Positions 13,050 to 50,819 of a DNA stretch of 64,000 bases are shown piece after piece. The DNA comes from Anaeromyxobacter dehalogenans 2CP-1 (GTDB lineage: Bacteria; Myxococcota; Myxococcia; Myxococcales; Anaeromyxobacteraceae), in NCBI RefSeq assembly GCF_000022145.1, contig NC_011891.1:3640501-3704500 (forward strand), read 5' to 3'. The translations under genes were made by a program, and so were the position numbers. Every line of letters begins with the position of its first letter. Positions within the stretch are counted from its first letter, which is position 1. Under the pieces are notes generated by a model, which saw nothing but the letters and a program-made list of their open reading frames with translations, made no database searches and was not told the DNA's origin.

Positions 13050-15383
13050 CTACGGACAGCCGAACGGCCGGGTCGCCGCGCCCTGGTACAGGTCGCAGAC
13101 CGGGACGCGCGCGCCCGAGGCGTGGCAGTCCGTGCACGCCGAGATCGCCTGCGCCCGCGGCGCCACCTCGTGGTTCACGTTCATGAACATCTCGGTGTCG
13201 CTCCAGCGCCAATCCACGCCGCGGACGAGCGCGCGGAAGAGGCGCACCGGCTGCGTCGAGACCACCGGGGCGGCCGGGCTCGGCAGCGCCGCCTCGTGCC
13301 AGCGGAGCGTGTTCGCGTCCACCGCGGTGACCGCCTTGATGCCGGGCGCAAAGCCGGCGTCGGGCGTCATCACGTTGTACGTGCCGGAGGCGAGCCCGTG
13401 CCCCGGCGCGTCGAGCGTCACGTCGCCGGCGGCGTCGCGCGTCGCGTGGCCGGCGGCCACGGTGACGAGCACAGGGACCTGCCCCGCGGTGGCCGCGCCG
13501 AACGAGACCACGTCGTTCCACATGGCATCGAGGAACGCCGCGTAGGTGGCGTGGTCGCCGTACCTCGGCCCGGTCGGCGCGGCCGAGGTGGCCGGGACGA
13601 CCGGGATCGACGCGCCCGCGGCGGTCGGATCCGGCTTCGTGCCCCACAGCGACCAGGCGCCGAACACGTGCGGCACGATGGCGAACGCGCCGTCGATCAT
13701 CACCGGCTGCCGCCCCTGCATGTGCTTGAACGGGGTGATGCGCGCGCCGGCGTCGCCCAGCCGGGCGGCGGGCTCGGACAGCGCGATGGGCGCGCCGGCC
13801 GCCAGCCCATCGGCGGGATCGAACGAGGCCAGGGCGCCCGCGACGGTGGTGTGACGGGCGGTGCCGTCGTACCAGCGGTACGCCGGCTTCACGCCCTTCT
13901 CCATCACGAACACGCCCTTCTGCCAGTTGTAGTCCACCTCCACCCCGTCGATGACGGCCCTGGACGTGCCGAACGCCGGGCTGGCCGGGTCGGTGACGCA
14001 CGCGTCCACGATCGCCTGCGGCGCGCCGGGGTACTTGCAGTCCTTGTAGCCGGCCTGCGCCCAGTTCCAGTTCGTCTTGGTGGCGAGCTGCCGCGAGAAC
14101 GCGGGCACGTGGCAGGTCTGGCAGGCGACCGCGGCGAGGTGCTTCGCGGTGTGGATGGGCGCGGTCGGCGCGTGGCAGTCGGCGCAGGCGAGCGGCGCCT
14201 CCTCCACCATGGCGACCGAGAGGCCGGTGCCCTTCATGCGGTCGTGGCGGAAGGCGTCGCCGGCGTGGCAGTCCACGCACAGCGTGGGCGCGCCGGCGTT
14301 CGCCGAGCCCATGTGCACGTCCACCTCCGGGCCGGCCGGCGCCGCCAGCGAAGAGGCGAGGTCGCCCATCTTCACGTTGTCACCGCCGCCTGCGTAGAAG
14401 TGGCACTTGCCGCAGTTGTCGCGGCCGGGGCGCCGCACCGAGCGCGCGGCCTGGAGCAGGACGTCGGAGAGCTTCGCGGCGTACTCCGGCGAGCCAGGCG
14501 CGACGCAGGCCGGCCCGGCCTCGAGCGGGAGGCACACCTGCGTGCCGGTGCAGGCGGGGCTGCAGCCGGAGACGGGCTTCACGTCGGCGACGCCGAAGTT
14601 CTTCTGCGCCTTCACGTACCCCGTGCCCAGGTCGGCGTGGCAGACCAGGCAGTCCACGCGGCCGGCATCGGGCGCGAGCTGGTAGGCGAGCTTCTTCTGC
14701 GCCGGGTCGCCGTAGCCGGCGTGGCACTCGCCGCAGCGCCCCTCGTTGCTGGGCACCGCCACGCAGAAGTCGTTGATGAGCCCCTTCTTGCCGACGGTCC
14801 CGTCGTCCACCGGGTTGCCCGCGGCGTCGCGGAGCCCGGGGGTCGGGCCGGCCCAGCGGAAGTGCGCCGAGGCCAGCATCTCCTGGCCGGCGCCGGCGTG
14901 GCAGGTGAGGCACTCGGCGGTCACCTCCTCGCCCTTCGTGAACGGGCCGGTGAGCCAGGCCGCGTGGATGTTCGTGACCTCGCAGCGCAGCGCGGTGGCG
15001 TTCCAGGCCTGGCCCGGGCCGCAGAGGGAGGCGGTCGCCTCGCAGCGCTGCGCCCCCGCGTTCCACGCCTGCCCGGCGCCGCACACGCCCACGCAGGCGG
15101 CGGTGCCGCCCGCCGCGAGGCACACCTGATCCTGCGCGCAGCCGCCGGCGCAGGCGCTGGAGAGGAGCGGCACGCAGGTCGCGGACGCGCCGGCGCCCTG
15201 GCACACCGTGCCCGCGCCGCAGGCGGGGCTGCAGGCCTCCACCGCGACACAGGCGCCGCCCACGCAGGCGGCGCCCTCGCCGCAGAAGTCCTGGCACTTC
15301 TTGTCCTCGGTCGACGAGCAGCCGGCCAGCCCGGCGGCCGCGACGAGCGCGGCGACGGCGAGGCCGTGGATCATTCGGATCAA
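13050..15383 (-). CDS. Octahaem c-type cytochrome of the OTR (octahaem tetrathionate reductase) family, lipoprotein
   Basis: A 777-residue exported multihaem protein. A GAGGAG site lies 6 bases before a TTG at 15383 (product MIRMIHGLAVAALVAAAG); an ATG at 15374 is too far from it. The signal ends LAGCSS, a lipobox. Residues about 30-140 form a cysteine-rich region with repeats such as CGAGQAWNAGAQRCEA. Eight CxxCH haem sites follow: CLTCH (about 158), CGECH, CLVCH, CGKCH, CVDCH, CADCH, CQTCH and, far downstream at about 750, CTDCH. Segments such as LTGPFTKGEEVTAECLTCH, SNEGRCGECHAGYGD and NCGKCHFYAGGGDNVKMGDL match the OTR family, whose Shewanella member reduces tetrathionate, nitrite and hydroxylamine in vitro. 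The natural substrate here is unknown. A sigma-54-type promoter and upstream repeats precede it. Confidence 0.88.
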   Translation of the reverse strand: MIRMIHGLAVAALVAAAGLAGCSSTEDKKCQDFCGEGAACVGGACVAVEACSPACGAGTVCQGAGASATCVPLLSSACAGGCAQDQVCLAAGGTAACVGVCGAGQAWNAGAQRCEATASLCGPGQAWNATALRCEVTNIHAAWLTGPFTKGEEVTAECLTCHAGAGQEMLASAHFRWAGPTPGLRDAAGNPVDDGTVGKKGLINDFCVAVPSNEGRCGECHAGYGDPAQKKLAYQLAPDAGRVDCLVCHADLGTGYVKAQKNFGVADVKPVSGCSPACTGTQVCLPLEAGPACVAPGSPEYAAKLSDVLLQAARSVRRPGRDNCGKCHFYAGGGDNVKMGDLASSLAAPAGPEVDVHMGSANAGAPTLCVDCHAGDAFRHDRMKGTGLSVAMVEEAPLACADCHAPTAPIHTAKHLAAVACQTCHVPAFSRQLATKTNWNWAQAGYKDCKYPGAPQAIVDACVTDPASPAFGTSRAVIDGVEVDYNWQKGVFVMEKGVKPAYRWYDGTARHTTVAGALASFDPADGLAAGAPIALSEPAARLGDAGARITPFKHMQGRQPVMIDGAFAIVPHVFGAWSLWGTKPDPTAAGASIPVVPATSAAPTGPRYGDHATYAAFLDAMWNDVVSFGAATAGQVPVLVTVAAGHATRDAAGDVTLDAPGHGLASGTYNVMTPDAGFAPGIKAVTAVDANTLRWHEAALPSPAAPVVSTQPVRLFRALVRGVDWRWSDTEMFMNVNHEVAPRAQAISACTDCHASGARVPVCDLYQGAATRPFGCP

Positions 15384-15459
15384 GACGTTCTCCTCGGAAC
15401 GGGGTTCACCGCAGGTGGCGGCGCGCCGCGCGCCCGCAGGCGGCGGCGCCGGCCGTTGA

Positions 15460-15474
15460 GCAACGCGCGTGCCC
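15460..15474 (-). promoter_or_regulatory. Sigma-54 (-24/-12) promoter of the octahaem cytochrome gene
   Basis: Read on the minus strand, 15474 to 15460 is GGGCACGCGCGTTGC followed by T. This fits the sigma-54 consensus TGGCACG-N4-TTGC(A/T) at all positions but the first, with the invariant GG and GC exactly 10 bases apart. The start of transcription would fall near 15448, leaving a leader of about 65 bases before the TTG start. A sigma-54 activator gene is divergent to it. Confidence 0.75.
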
Positions 15475-15570: not shown

Positions 15571-15588
15571 ACGTTCACGCGTGAACGT
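15571..15588. promoter_or_regulatory. Upstream activator site 1 (perfect 18-base palindrome)
   Basis: ACGTTCACGCGTGAACGT is its own reverse complement. Arms GTTCAC and GTGAAC are 2 bases apart. It lies about 100 bases upstream of the -24/-12 promoter, the normal distance for an enhancer of a sigma-54 activator. Confidence 0.65.
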
Positions 15589-15598
15589 TCGCCGTCTC

Positions 15599-15620
15599 GT
15601 TCACGCCGGCGCCGGTGAAC
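15599..15620. promoter_or_regulatory. Upstream activator site 2 (GTTCAC-N10-GTGAAC)
   Basis: The same arms GTTCAC and GTGAAC are separated by a 10-base, itself GC-symmetric, spacer. Site 2 is 28 bases from site 1 (start to start) and about 130 bases upstream of the -24/-12 promoter. Confidence 0.6.
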
Positions 15621-15729
15621 GCCTGGCCGCGGCGCCCGGGCCGCGGCCCGGAAGCCCTCGGAAACCGGCCATGCGGCGATCCGCCGCAGCGCCGCGCGGA
15701 ACCTTCGCCAGGGCGTGCGGCTCCGATCC

Positions 15730-15747
15730 GGCGTTCACGTGAACGCC
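15730..15747. promoter_or_regulatory. Palindromic site 3 before the activator gene
   Basis: GGCGTTCACGTGAACGCC is a perfect 18-base palindrome with abutting GTTCAC/GTGAAC arms. It ends 9 bases before the GTG of the activator gene, directly against its ribosome-binding site, a position suited to negative autoregulation of that gene. Confidence 0.6.
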
Positions 15748-15756
15748 GGAGGAGAC

Positions 15757-17127
15757 GTGCCCCCGCCCAGCGCCGCCCCCCTCCCGTTCCTCGGCCTCGG
15801 CAGCGAGGACGCGCTCCGCGCCGTCGCCGACGCGCTCCCGGACGGCCTGTTCACCACCGACGCCGCGGGGCGCATCACGTTCTGGAACCGCGCCGCGGCG
15901 CGGATCACCGGGTGGTCCTCCGGCGACGCGGTCGGGCGCGACTGCTCGCTGCTCGCCGGCGACCCGGTGCATGGCTGTGCGTGCGGCGCCGGGCCCATCC
16001 GCTGCGGCATGGCCGAGCGCGAGCGCACCTCCAAGACCTGCTCGGTGCGCACGCGCGACGACCGCCTGCTGGTGATCGTGAAGAGCGCCGTGCCCCTGCT
16101 CGCGCCCGACGGCACCGCGGTCGGGGCGCTCGAGTCCTTCAGCCCGGTGGACCCGGTGCCCGGCGGGCGGCGGCAGGACGCGTGCGCGCGGCCCCAGGCG
16201 TCCGGCCTGCTCGGCCGCGGGCCGGCCATGGAGGAGCTGCGCCGGATGATCGCGCTGGTGGCGCGCTCCGACGCCACGGTGATGCTGCACGGCGAGAGCG
16301 GCTCCGGCAAGGAGCGCGTCGCCGAGGCCATCCACGCCGGCAGCGCGCGGGCGGCGGGCCCGTTCGTGCGCGTGAACTGCTCCGCGCTGAACGAGAACCT
16401 GCTGGAGAGCGAGCTGTTCGGGCACGTGCGCGGCGCGTTCACCGGCGCCCTGCGCGATCGGCGCGGGCGCTTCCAGGACGCGGACGGCGGCACCTTGCTG
16501 CTGGACGAGATCGGCGACATCTCGCCGGTGGTGCAGGTGAAGCTGCTGCGGGTCATCGAGCAGCGCCAGATCGAGCGCGTGGGCGACTCCGCGCCGGTCC
16601 CGGTGGACGTGCGCATCGTGTGCGCCACCCACCGCGACCTGCGCGCGCTGGTCGACGCGGGTCGGTTCCGCGCGGACCTGTACTTCCGCCTGGCGGTGTT
16701 CCCGCTGCGCGTCCCCCCGCTGCGCGAGCACGTCGAGGACCTCCCCGAGATCGCCACCGCGTTCCTGGAGCGCCACGCGCCGGCCCCCGGGGGGCGGCCG
16801 CGCGCCCTCTCCGCCGCCGCGATCGCGGCGCTGTCCGCCTGCACCTGGCCCGGCAACGTGCGCGAGCTCCAGAACGTGCTCGAGTTCGCGGCGCTGCAGG
16901 CGGGGGACGGTGACCTCGGGATCGAGCACCTCCCCGCCGAGCTGCGCGGCGCCTGCGCCCCGCTGCCCCGCCGCCCGGGTGCGATGCCGGGGCCGGAGGA
17001 GATCCGGTCCGCGCTGGAGGCCTGCGGCGGGCGCCGGGCCGAGGCCGCGCGGCGGCTCGGCATCTCGCGGGGTACCCTCTGGAAGCGGATGCGGGCGCTC
17101 GCGCCGGGCTCGTCCGATCCGGGCTAG
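15757..17127 (+). CDS. Sigma-54-dependent transcriptional activator with cysteine-rich PAS sensor
   Basis: A 456-residue enhancer-binding protein. GTG at 15757 is chosen because GGAGGA lies just upstream; the frame also runs from 15715, across palindrome 3. An N-terminal PAS domain (residues about 20-130) carries five cysteines (about 63, 74, 76, 83, 95), grouped as CxC-x6-C with flanking Cys. The AAA+ domain follows: Walker [11 protein letters not shown], the sigma-54 contact loop GAFTGA in [16 protein letters not shown], Walker [12 protein letters not shown], and the arginine-finger region. A Fis-type helix-turn-helix closes it ([20 protein letters not shown]). No phosphoacceptor receiver domain is present, so it senses directly. 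It is divergent from the octahaem cytochrome gene with the palindromes between. Confidence 0.93.
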
Positions 17128-17288: not shown

Positions 17289-17906
17289 ATGCGGAAGATT
17301 GCGATCGCGTTGGGGACGTGGGTGCTGCTGCTGCTCGGGGGGCGTGCGCTCGGCGCCGAGCCCTCCCCCACGCAGGCGAACCTCCAGGCGGCGCACCAGC
17401 GCGATCTGGATGCGCACGCGCGGTACCAGGCCTTCGCCCTCGCCGCGGACCGCGAGGGCTACCCGGGCGCGGCGGCGCTGTTCCGGGCGGCGGCGCGGTC
17501 CGAGCAGATCCGGGCGGAGCAGCACGCCGCGGCGCTCCGTCGCCTGGGCGGGTCGGTGACGACGGCCGCGGCGGTGGTGGGGACGGTGCGCGACACCCCG
17601 TTCAACCTGCGGGCGATGCTGTCGCACGAGAGCGCGGAACGGTTCGGCTCCTACCCGCGCGCGGTCCGGCAGGCCCGTCGCGAGGAGCTGGCGGAGGCGG
17701 CGCTCGGCTTCACGCTCGCGCACGCGGTCGAGCGGGAGCTGGTCGCGCTCTATCAGGACGCGGTGGGGCGACTGGACGCCCTCCGCACGCCGGGCGAGCC
17801 GTTCCACGTCTGCCGCACGTGCGGGCACGTGGCGCGCGGCGCCCGGCCGCCGGAGACGTGCCCGGTGTCGCTCTCGCCCGCCGAGGCGTTCGAGCGCGTC
17901 CCGTAG
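17289..17906 (+). CDS. Exported rubrerythrin-like protein with altered metal ligands
   Basis: A 205-residue protein beginning MRKIAIALGTWVLLLLGGRA with a cleavable-looking signal (cleavage near ALGAEP), so probably periplasmic, unlike ordinary cytoplasmic rubrerythrins. The ferritin-like part keeps the rubrerythrin layout (ARYQAFALAADREGYPGAAALF, then RSEQIRAEQHAAAL and a second helix pair), but the first ExxH reads EQIR and the last reads EREL. The C-terminal rubredoxin-like knuckle has CRTC and then CPVS where CPxC is expected, leaving three cysteines. A good GGAGG site precedes the ATG at 17289. The family reduces peroxide; loss of ligands makes that activity doubtful here. Confidence 0.85.
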   Translation: MRKIAIALGTWVLLLLGGRALGAEPSPTQANLQAAHQRDLDAHARYQAFALAADREGYPGAAALFRAAARSEQIRAEQHAAALRRLGGSVTTAAAVVGTVRDTPFNLRAMLSHESAERFGSYPRAVRQARREELAEAALGFTLAHAVERELVALYQDAVGRLDALRTPGEPFHVCRTCGHVARGARPPETCPVSLSPAEAFERVP

Positions 17907-18246: not shown

Positions 18247-18579
18247 TCAGCCGCCGCGCGCCCGCGATTCCGCGAGCTTGCGCGGGGGCGGGGGCGCGAG
18301 GGTGCGGGCCCGCAGCGCCTCCAGGTACGCCTCCATCACGTCGCGCCGGAGCCGGAAGTACGCGAAGTGCCCCTCCCGGCGCCGCTCCAGGAGCTGCGCG
18401 GCCACCAGCTCCTTCAGGTGGTGCGAGACGGTGGACTGGCACAGGGCGACGCCCTCCACCAGCTGGGAACAGGCCACCTCTCCCTCGGCCGCGGCGCGGC
18501 GCAGGATCTCGCAGCGCTGCGGGTCGGCGAGCGCCCGCGCGATGGTGCAGAACTCGTCGTCGGTGAGCTGGACGGGCAT
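18247..18579 (-). CDS. ArsR-family transcriptional regulator
   Basis: A 110-residue winged-helix repressor. It starts MPVQLTDDEFCTIARALADP at 18579 after an AGGAG site; the open frame upstream is not homologous. The DNA-binding core is LADPQRCEILRRAA...CQSTVSHHLKELVAAQLLERR, followed by the wing REGHFAYFRLR. Two cysteines (in ACSQLVEGVALCQSTV) occur near the recognition helix, but the classical ELCVCDL metal-binding box is absent, so the inducer is unclear. Its target could be its own gene and the small gene downstream. Confidence 0.88.
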   Translation of the reverse strand: MPVQLTDDEFCTIARALADPQRCEILRRAAAEGEVACSQLVEGVALCQSTVSHHLKELVAAQLLERRREGHFAYFRLRRDVMEAYLEALRARTLAPPPPRKLAESRARGG

Positions 18580-49870: not shown

Positions 49871-50819
49871 CTACGTGCCCGCCGCGTCCACCTCGGAGCC
49901 CTCGGGCGCCGGGAGTGCCTCCGCCTCCGCCGCGGGCGAGCGCCGGGCCAGAGCACCAGCGCGCCGAGGACGCCGGCGAGCATCGACGCGGCGAAGATCG
50001 CGATCTTCGCCGCGGGGACTCGATGCGATCGTGGATGGCGTCCAGCGCGCGCAGCGCCGGCAGCGAGCGGTGGCGCAGCACGCCCTCGCGCGCCCGGCGC
50101 AGCTCCGCCTCCAGCACCGCCTGCGCCTGCCCGGTGAGCGCGCGGAGGTCGGGCGGCGGCCGGGTCGGCGTCACCACCGCCAGGATCACCCCCGCCAGCC
50201 TGGGGTGCAGCCCGGCCGCGTGGAGGCAGGCCCACAGCAGCACGCCCAGCGCGGCGTACGGCGGCGCCGCCGAGATCGCCGCCCGGCTCAGCCCGGCGAG
50301 GGGCGCGGTCACCGCCGCCGCCGCGAGCAGCCACGGCACCGAGATCGCGCCGGAGTCGAACAGCGCCACCACCGCGATCGCGACCAGGTCGTTCACCCAT
50401 TGCACCAGCGGCAGCGCGAACGCGTGGCCGCCCAGCGACAGCCCGAGCGGCGCCTGCCAGGCGGCGGTGAACGCGGCGCGGGCCGGCGAGCTCGCGATGG
50501 CGACCGCGAGCGCGGTGGCGGCCAGCAGCAGCAGGCGCGGTGGAGGGCGCCCGCCAGAAGCCGTCACCGGCGAGCCCGGCCGCCTCGGCCAGCTCGGCCG
50601 CCGGCCGGGCCGCCTTGGCGCGGATGGGCGCTGGCGGAACACGTACCGGAGCCGGTCGCGCAGGTCTGCGACGACCGCGTGGGCGGCGTGGCAGTGCGGG
50701 CAAGCGGAGCTGCCGTACTCGACCAGCGTCAGCTCCGCGCCGGCCTCGCCGAGCACGTGATCCCGCGCCGGGTCCACCGGAGGATCGAGCCGGACCGGGA
50801 GGGGAGCGGACGCGCTCAT
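49871..50819 (-). pseudogene. nhaA: Decayed DsbA-NhaA fusion gene (sodium/proton antiporter remnant)
   Basis: From ATG 50819 the frame starts as a DsbA-like domain ([20 protein letters not shown], then [20 protein letters not shown] with a CPHC active site) and breaks off at RYVFRQRP; the continuation is legible in another frame ([20 protein letters not shown]). The first frame then resumes as NhaA helix 1 ([20 protein letters not shown]), but [16 protein letters not shown] joins the start of helix 2 to the end of helix 5, deleting about 115 residues with the essential Asp pair. Helices 6-7 remain, helices 9-11 are missing, and the last helix ([20 protein letters not shown]) is out of frame. 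I infer at least two frameshifts and two deletions. Confidence 0.8.

Follow-up and report, generated by a model that had tools for sequence, protein, structure and literature searches.

Conserved GTTCA half-sites as predicted enhancer and autoregulatory sites between a sigma-54 activator gene and an OTR-like octahaem cytochrome gene in Anaeromyxobacter dehalogenans

The divergent gene pair and its promoter

The window analyzed here is a 64,000-nucleotide stretch of Anaeromyxobacter dehalogenans 2CP-1 (contig NC_011891.1, positions 3,640,501 to 3,704,500), and plain coordinates below are positions within it. On its reverse strand, 13050..15383 encodes a secreted octahaem c-type cytochrome that starts at a TTG at 15383 or an ATG at 15374. 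The translation contains 8 CxxCH motifs, the eight haem sites expected of the OTR family, and matches PF11783. Full membership of that family was rejected because TIGR04315 gave 311.9 bits and its curated cut-off is 375, and since the only solved-structure match is 1SP3 (E 1e-61), we refer to the protein as OTR-like. A long Cys-rich N-terminal extension lies ahead of the OTR-like domain, behind a lipoprotein-like signal. Upstream of the gene is a sigma-54 −24/−12 element, GGGCACGCGCGTTGCT (15459..15474, reverse strand), that agrees with the consensus at 11/12 positions and is invariant at 16/16 positions in the three closest genomes; most other OTR-like promoters carry similar elements. The cytochrome transcript is predicted to begin near 15448.

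The divergent gene on the forward strand (15757..17127), with a GTG start at 15757 preceded by the Shine-Dalgarno sequence GGAGGAG, encodes a sigma-54 activator with PAS, AAA+, and Fis-type HTH domains. The AAA+ domain (PF00158, 225 bits) bears the GAFTGA sigma-54 contact loop at residues 226-231, the HTH occupies the C-terminus (PF02954, 45.6 bits, residues 415-447), and because the protein lacks a receiver domain, it is a one-component activator. Five PAS cysteines (C63, C74, C76, C83, and C95) are invariant in 13/13 aligned activator homologs, a pattern that suggests a metal, Fe-S, or redox-sensing site. The AlphaFold model (mean pLDDT 67.7) is uninformative on metal binding because the cysteine-bearing PAS insert, residues 68-84, falls below a pLDDT of 50. 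A NorR-type identity was considered and rejected, the sensor being PAS, not an N-terminal GAF domain with NO-sensing iron, and the NCBIfam NorR score being 317 bits against a cut-off of 476.

Homologs of the activator are present in 24/24 genomes of the family Anaeromyxobacteraceae, but when the PAS domain is used to single out close relatives, 13 of 195 genomes from the phylum have one; a wider search of genome contigs added only generic PAS matches to these lineages. The activator and an OTR-like gene occur together in 10 of the 195 (13 and 12 positives, respectively; hypergeometric 1e-12, uncorrected for phylogeny).

Three inverted repeats in the intergenic region

The pattern GTTCACN{0,14}GTGAAC matches exactly three times in the window, every time between the activator and cytochrome genes, and as the original prediction had claimed, the three repeats share identical 6-base arms with spacers of 2, 10, and 0. 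Site 1 (15571..15588, arms 15573-15586, spacer 2) is an 18-bp perfect palindrome, ACGTTCACGCGTGAACGT, and site 2 (15599..15620) is GTTCAC-N10-GTGAAC, wider than site 3 by one helical turn. Site 3 (15727..15750, core 15733-15744, spacer 0) had been described, like site 1, as a perfect palindrome of 18 bases; that length is right for site 1 and an understatement for site 3, which extends to 24 bp, TCCGGCGTTCACGTGAACGCCGGA. None of the three is assigned a strand. This locus holds the only copy of GTTCACGTGAAC and the only copy of GTTCACGCGTGAAC in the 5.03-Mb genome.

The half-sites of sites 1 and 2 start 103–146 bp upstream of the sigma-54 element, roughly the 100–130 bases first estimated, and this is classical enhancer distance. 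Site 1 would be the proximal and site 2 the second pair of enhancer half-sites, and the locus thus has what is expected of a sigma-54 activator's target, conserved inverted repeats within roughly 80–200 bp upstream of the promoter. Site 3 lies about 265 bp from the cytochrome's sigma-54 element and is likely an autoregulatory operator, since it abuts, and slightly overlaps, the activator's Shine-Dalgarno sequence, as predicted. With a sigma-54 promoter present, the enhancer and autoregulatory placements originally proposed both hold up. A search upstream of the activator for a promoter of its own found neither a sigma-54 nor a sigma-70-like sequence.

Could such repeats be chance palindromes of GC-rich DNA, inherited without function? 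Perfect palindromes are common in DNA of this kind, the window holding 15 of at least 16 bp, so any significance must come from the shared GTTCAC arms, their clustering, and their conservation. Dinucleotide shuffles, however, gave an expectation of 0.01 matches to GTTCACN{0,14}GTGAAC, and 0/100 shuffles reached three. Conservation among close relatives also argues against chance. Both nearest genomes (G001 and G006) retain sites 1 and 3, while site 2 is retained in G001 and partly lost in G006, Anaeromyxobacter sp. PSR-1. Site 1 is invariant at 17/18 positions and the 15730-15747 core of site 3 at 18/18 across the three closest genomes, and the sites together with the sigma-54 element are more conserved than the remaining intergenic DNA (Fisher p 0.0002), although these three genomes are too similar to prove constraint by themselves. 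The motif also recurs at distant and unlinked promoters, described below; as an account of these repeats, chance is exceedingly improbable, and for the half-sites in general it is refuted.

Half-sites in distant relatives and at unlinked promoters

In A. oryzae (G002), about 3.4 Mb separates the activator (C1:1.43 Mb) from the OTR-like gene (4.85 Mb), and the motif is found at both. On the cytochrome side, half-sites lie 94–126 bp upstream of a sigma-54 element, CGGTACGCGGGTTGCT; on the activator side, GTTCACCTGAAC lies 35 bp upstream of the gene. The activator's divergent neighbor in this genome has no good sigma-54 element, yet the activator-side site is still kept. This retention of a site with no adjacent sigma-54 target supports autoregulation, and it is the best evidence for it.

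In A. soli, where the search used found no OTR-like gene, the activator has the site GTTCAC-N12-GTGAAC, and what the two face is another multihaem cytochrome gene that carries a sigma-54 element of its own. This A. soli cytochrome (L064:1483-3786) is split over two adjacent reading frames with 7 + 1 CxxCH motifs, possibly through a frameshift or because there are two genes.

Elsewhere, G020 has GTTCAC-N14-GTGAAC and one further pair, and in G013 and G023 the GTTCA half-sites form clusters; a second OTR-like copy in G013 has half-sites and no convergent pair, and G005 shows isolated or degenerate half-sites only. An order-level relative, an Archangium MAG (G068), carries GTTCACGTGAACGTTCACTTGAAC in the equivalent divergent intergenic region, and the 12-mer core of site 3 also occurs upstream of an order-level activator ortholog (L052). 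In a genome from another family of the phylum (G034), the activator and OTR-like gene are in tandem with a GTTCA cluster between them, 112–148 bp upstream of a sigma-54-like element that is weak here, as it is in G068.

Across these loci, 14 regions were tested against dinucleotide shuffles, and 11 of them showed a significant excess of inverted pairs. GTTCA/TGAAC is the top-enriched 5-mer (43 seen against 4.7 expected, with occurrences in 12/12 lineage-reduced regions), an enrichment that is descriptive, since the motif was already under consideration when the regions were chosen around known promoters. The original prediction had staked itself on conservation of the arms in orthologous intergenic regions, and the half-sites are conserved there, including at cytochrome promoters unlinked from the activator.

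Comparison with these relatives also bears on the idea that site 3 acts as RNA, forming a hairpin in the leader of the activator mRNA that masks the ribosome-binding site and so imposes translational control. The 24-bp palindrome does fold strongly into the Shine-Dalgarno sequence (−31.6 kcal/mol, z −3.2), and its core is invariant in the three close genomes. Sites 1 and 2, however, fold in an ordinary way (z −0.4 and 0.4), and in genomes beyond these three, GTTCA half-sites are retained at differing spacing although the outer arms have gone, a pattern that is the signature of DNA binding. We therefore regard the hairpin as quite unlikely to be the explanation of site 3, where alone it could coexist with DNA binding.

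Assignment of the sites to the activator

We propose that the repeats are very probably the enhancer and autoregulatory sites of the adjacent PAS-AAA+-Fis activator, and that the octahaem cytochrome gene is most likely its target. One difficulty for this preferred explanation is that a 12–14-bp palindrome is compact for a HTH dimer and the spacer variation comes without a structural account, both of which count against it. So do the exceptions noted above in G005 and in the second OTR-like copy of G013, the weak sigma-54-like elements of G068 and G034, and the failure to recognize a promoter for the activator itself. Compact palindromes of this length are typical of many non-Fis regulators, so the same repeats might instead serve a different factor, TetR-, GntR-, or CRP-like, as operators for joint control of the two divergent genes, with the sigma-54 activator binding elsewhere or being recruited without DNA contact; two ORFs of the window about 1–2 kb away, at 18247 and 18624, are indeed ArsR/HxlR-like genes. 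The activator is nevertheless the sole regulator gene that accompanies the motif in every linked genome, the motif tracks it to the unlinked site of A. oryzae and to the different cytochrome gene of A. soli, and no competing conserved motif is available for the enhancer role.

OTR-like genes with another activator, or with none, further weaken the case for a separate factor because they are without the motif. Full-size OTR-like genes in two genomes that lack the activator (G039 and G163) have no GTTCA..TGAAC pair, and the one in G039 adjoins another activator. The family also contains a second, smaller OTR-like cytochrome (L150-L155, L160, and L163-L165), and at most of these loci stands a different conserved promoter-like element, NGGCACGNNNNNCGCA. 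No GTTCA..TGAAC pair was found at ten such smaller OTR-like loci, several of them divergent from a different sigma-54 activator. Taken with the genomic associations above, this leaves regulation by a different factor rather unlikely, and assignment of the sites to the adjacent activator remains our preferred reading.

In four paralogs of the activator (L024:1501-2814, L025:1501-2856, L039:1501-2874, and L040:1501-2841), the HTH and the cysteines of the PAS domain are still present, but the GAFTGA loop and some stretches of the AAA+ domain are gone. These proteins probably act without sigma-54; no GTTCAC or GTGAAC half-sites were found upstream of them.

If the activator reads these half-sites, then further targets might be expected in its own genome. 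This was searched with GTTCACN{0,16}GTGAAC, GTTCAN{2,4}TGAAC, and GTTCACGTGAAC with one mismatch, each paired with a sigma-54-like element of at least 10/12 consensus positions no more than 400 bp downstream. No match outside this locus has such an element within that distance, and for the GTTCAC...GTGAAC matches this holds on either strand; thus, repeats and sigma-54 promoter occur together only at this locus, and the strict regulon is the locus alone. One candidate further target, GTTCACTTATGTGAAC at L005:1490-1530, was rejected because it resembles an intrinsic terminator, with a run of T after a GC-rich hairpin.

Half-site spacing and a model for activation

The half-site extends to CGTTCAC, with the preceding C in 35 of 43 occurrences and the following C in 26 of 43, and this half-site would be the activator's recognition unit. 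Convergent 5-mer pairs across lineages have spacers of 2, 3, and 4 and of 12, 14, 16, and 17, with one of 20; none of these pairs has a spacer of 5–11, in a sample that is small and made up of non-independent pairs. Counted on the 6-mer, spacers of 0/10 and 2/12 likewise differ by a helical turn. Such spacing is compatible with half-sites aligned along a single helix face, occupied either by one elastic dimer or by neighboring dimers that each have one strong half-site. The varied half-site spacing supports the earlier hint of flexible or alternative binding and stops short of proving it.

A bolder interpretation, which we put forward tentatively as possible rather than probable, is that what the activator recognizes is not a fixed-spacing dimer palindrome but individual GTTCA half-sites arrayed on one helix face. 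Since convergent spacings of 2–4 and 12–17 are about one turn apart with 5–11 unseen, the hexamer may nucleate on elastic arrays that would evolve fast in both number and spacing.

In the mechanism we envisage, the activator bound at sites 1 and 2 would assemble into an ATPase ring that, through looping of the DNA, contacts sigma-54 RNA polymerase at the −24/−12 element some 100–145 bp away, and this contact would switch on the octahaem cytochrome gene. Binding at site 3, which overlies the start region of the activator gene, would let the protein set its own level, probably by repression. The cysteine-rich PAS domain may read a redox-type or a metal- or haem-linked signal. The sites, their conservation, the sigma-54 promoter, the GAFTGA-bearing protein, and the co-occurrence of motif and activator, also where the genes are unlinked, are seen in the sequence itself, whereas binding, looping, the sign of autoregulation, and the type of signal are inferred.

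Relation to known sigma-54 systems

The architecture is already established in other bacteria. In E. coli, the pspF activator gene is divergent from its sigma-54 target, pspA, and the enhancer sites also repress the activator's promoter; PspF itself lacks a sensor domain and is kept in check by PspA. The divergence of activator and target is alike at the locus described here, whereas no PspA-like partner was seen.

NorR-norVW of E. coli likewise combines a one-component activator, a sigma-54 promoter, and three sites in a divergent intergenic region, the enhancer sites between norR and norVW serving to scaffold the oligomer (PMC2941729). Its sensor is a GAF domain responding to NO (PMC2941729), in contrast to the PAS domain with invariant cysteines and the GTTCA half-sites with 5-mer spacers of 2–4 or 12–17 found here.

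Closest of all is DVU3142-ohcBAC of Desulfovibrio vulgaris and its relatives: DVU3142 is predicted by comparative genomics to control the octahaem operon ohcBAC from a divergent position in the Desulfovibrionales (PMC4641369). In both systems, a one-component GAFTGA activator diverges from a gene or operon for an octahaem cytochrome that has a sigma-54 promoter with predicted activator sites upstream, and in both the prediction comes from comparative genomics, but the DVU3142 target is ohcBAC with membrane partners, whereas here it is a single secreted OTR-like cytochrome (PMC4641369). The same study describes another sigma-54 activator, DVU2956, with a predicted site of three half-sites and EMSA on wild-type and mutated sites (PMC4641369); its protein and sequence are different from those described here.

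An undescribed switch had been claimed for this locus, and that claim survives in part. The motif and locus are new, and none of the papers searched contains the exact string GTTCACGTGAAC, but a sigma-54 activator divergent from an octahaem operon had been predicted for Desulfovibrio (PMC4641369). What is new is the GTTCA motif with its elastic half-site spacing of 2–4 or 12–17 bp; the architecture belongs to NorR, PspF, and above all DVU3142.

The physiological role of OTR-like octahaem cytochromes is still debated. The locus supplies a concrete, testable motif for the PAS activator by which they appear to be controlled, and the signal of the switch would hint at the purpose of the cytochrome. 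Related enhancers with varied half-site spacing also constitute a natural series for the study of sigma-54 activator assembly on DNA.

Other features of the window and its relatives

The longest palindrome found in the window is a 28-bp perfect one, CGCGGCGAAGATCGCGATCTTCGCCGCG, at 49987-50014. The activator ortholog of G023 (L021:1501-2868) contains one in-frame TAG in the PAS region, reflecting decay or an assembly error. Just downstream of the activator, the product of 17289-17906 resembles rubrerythrin, ends in a rubredoxin-like tail, and has an apparent signal peptide.
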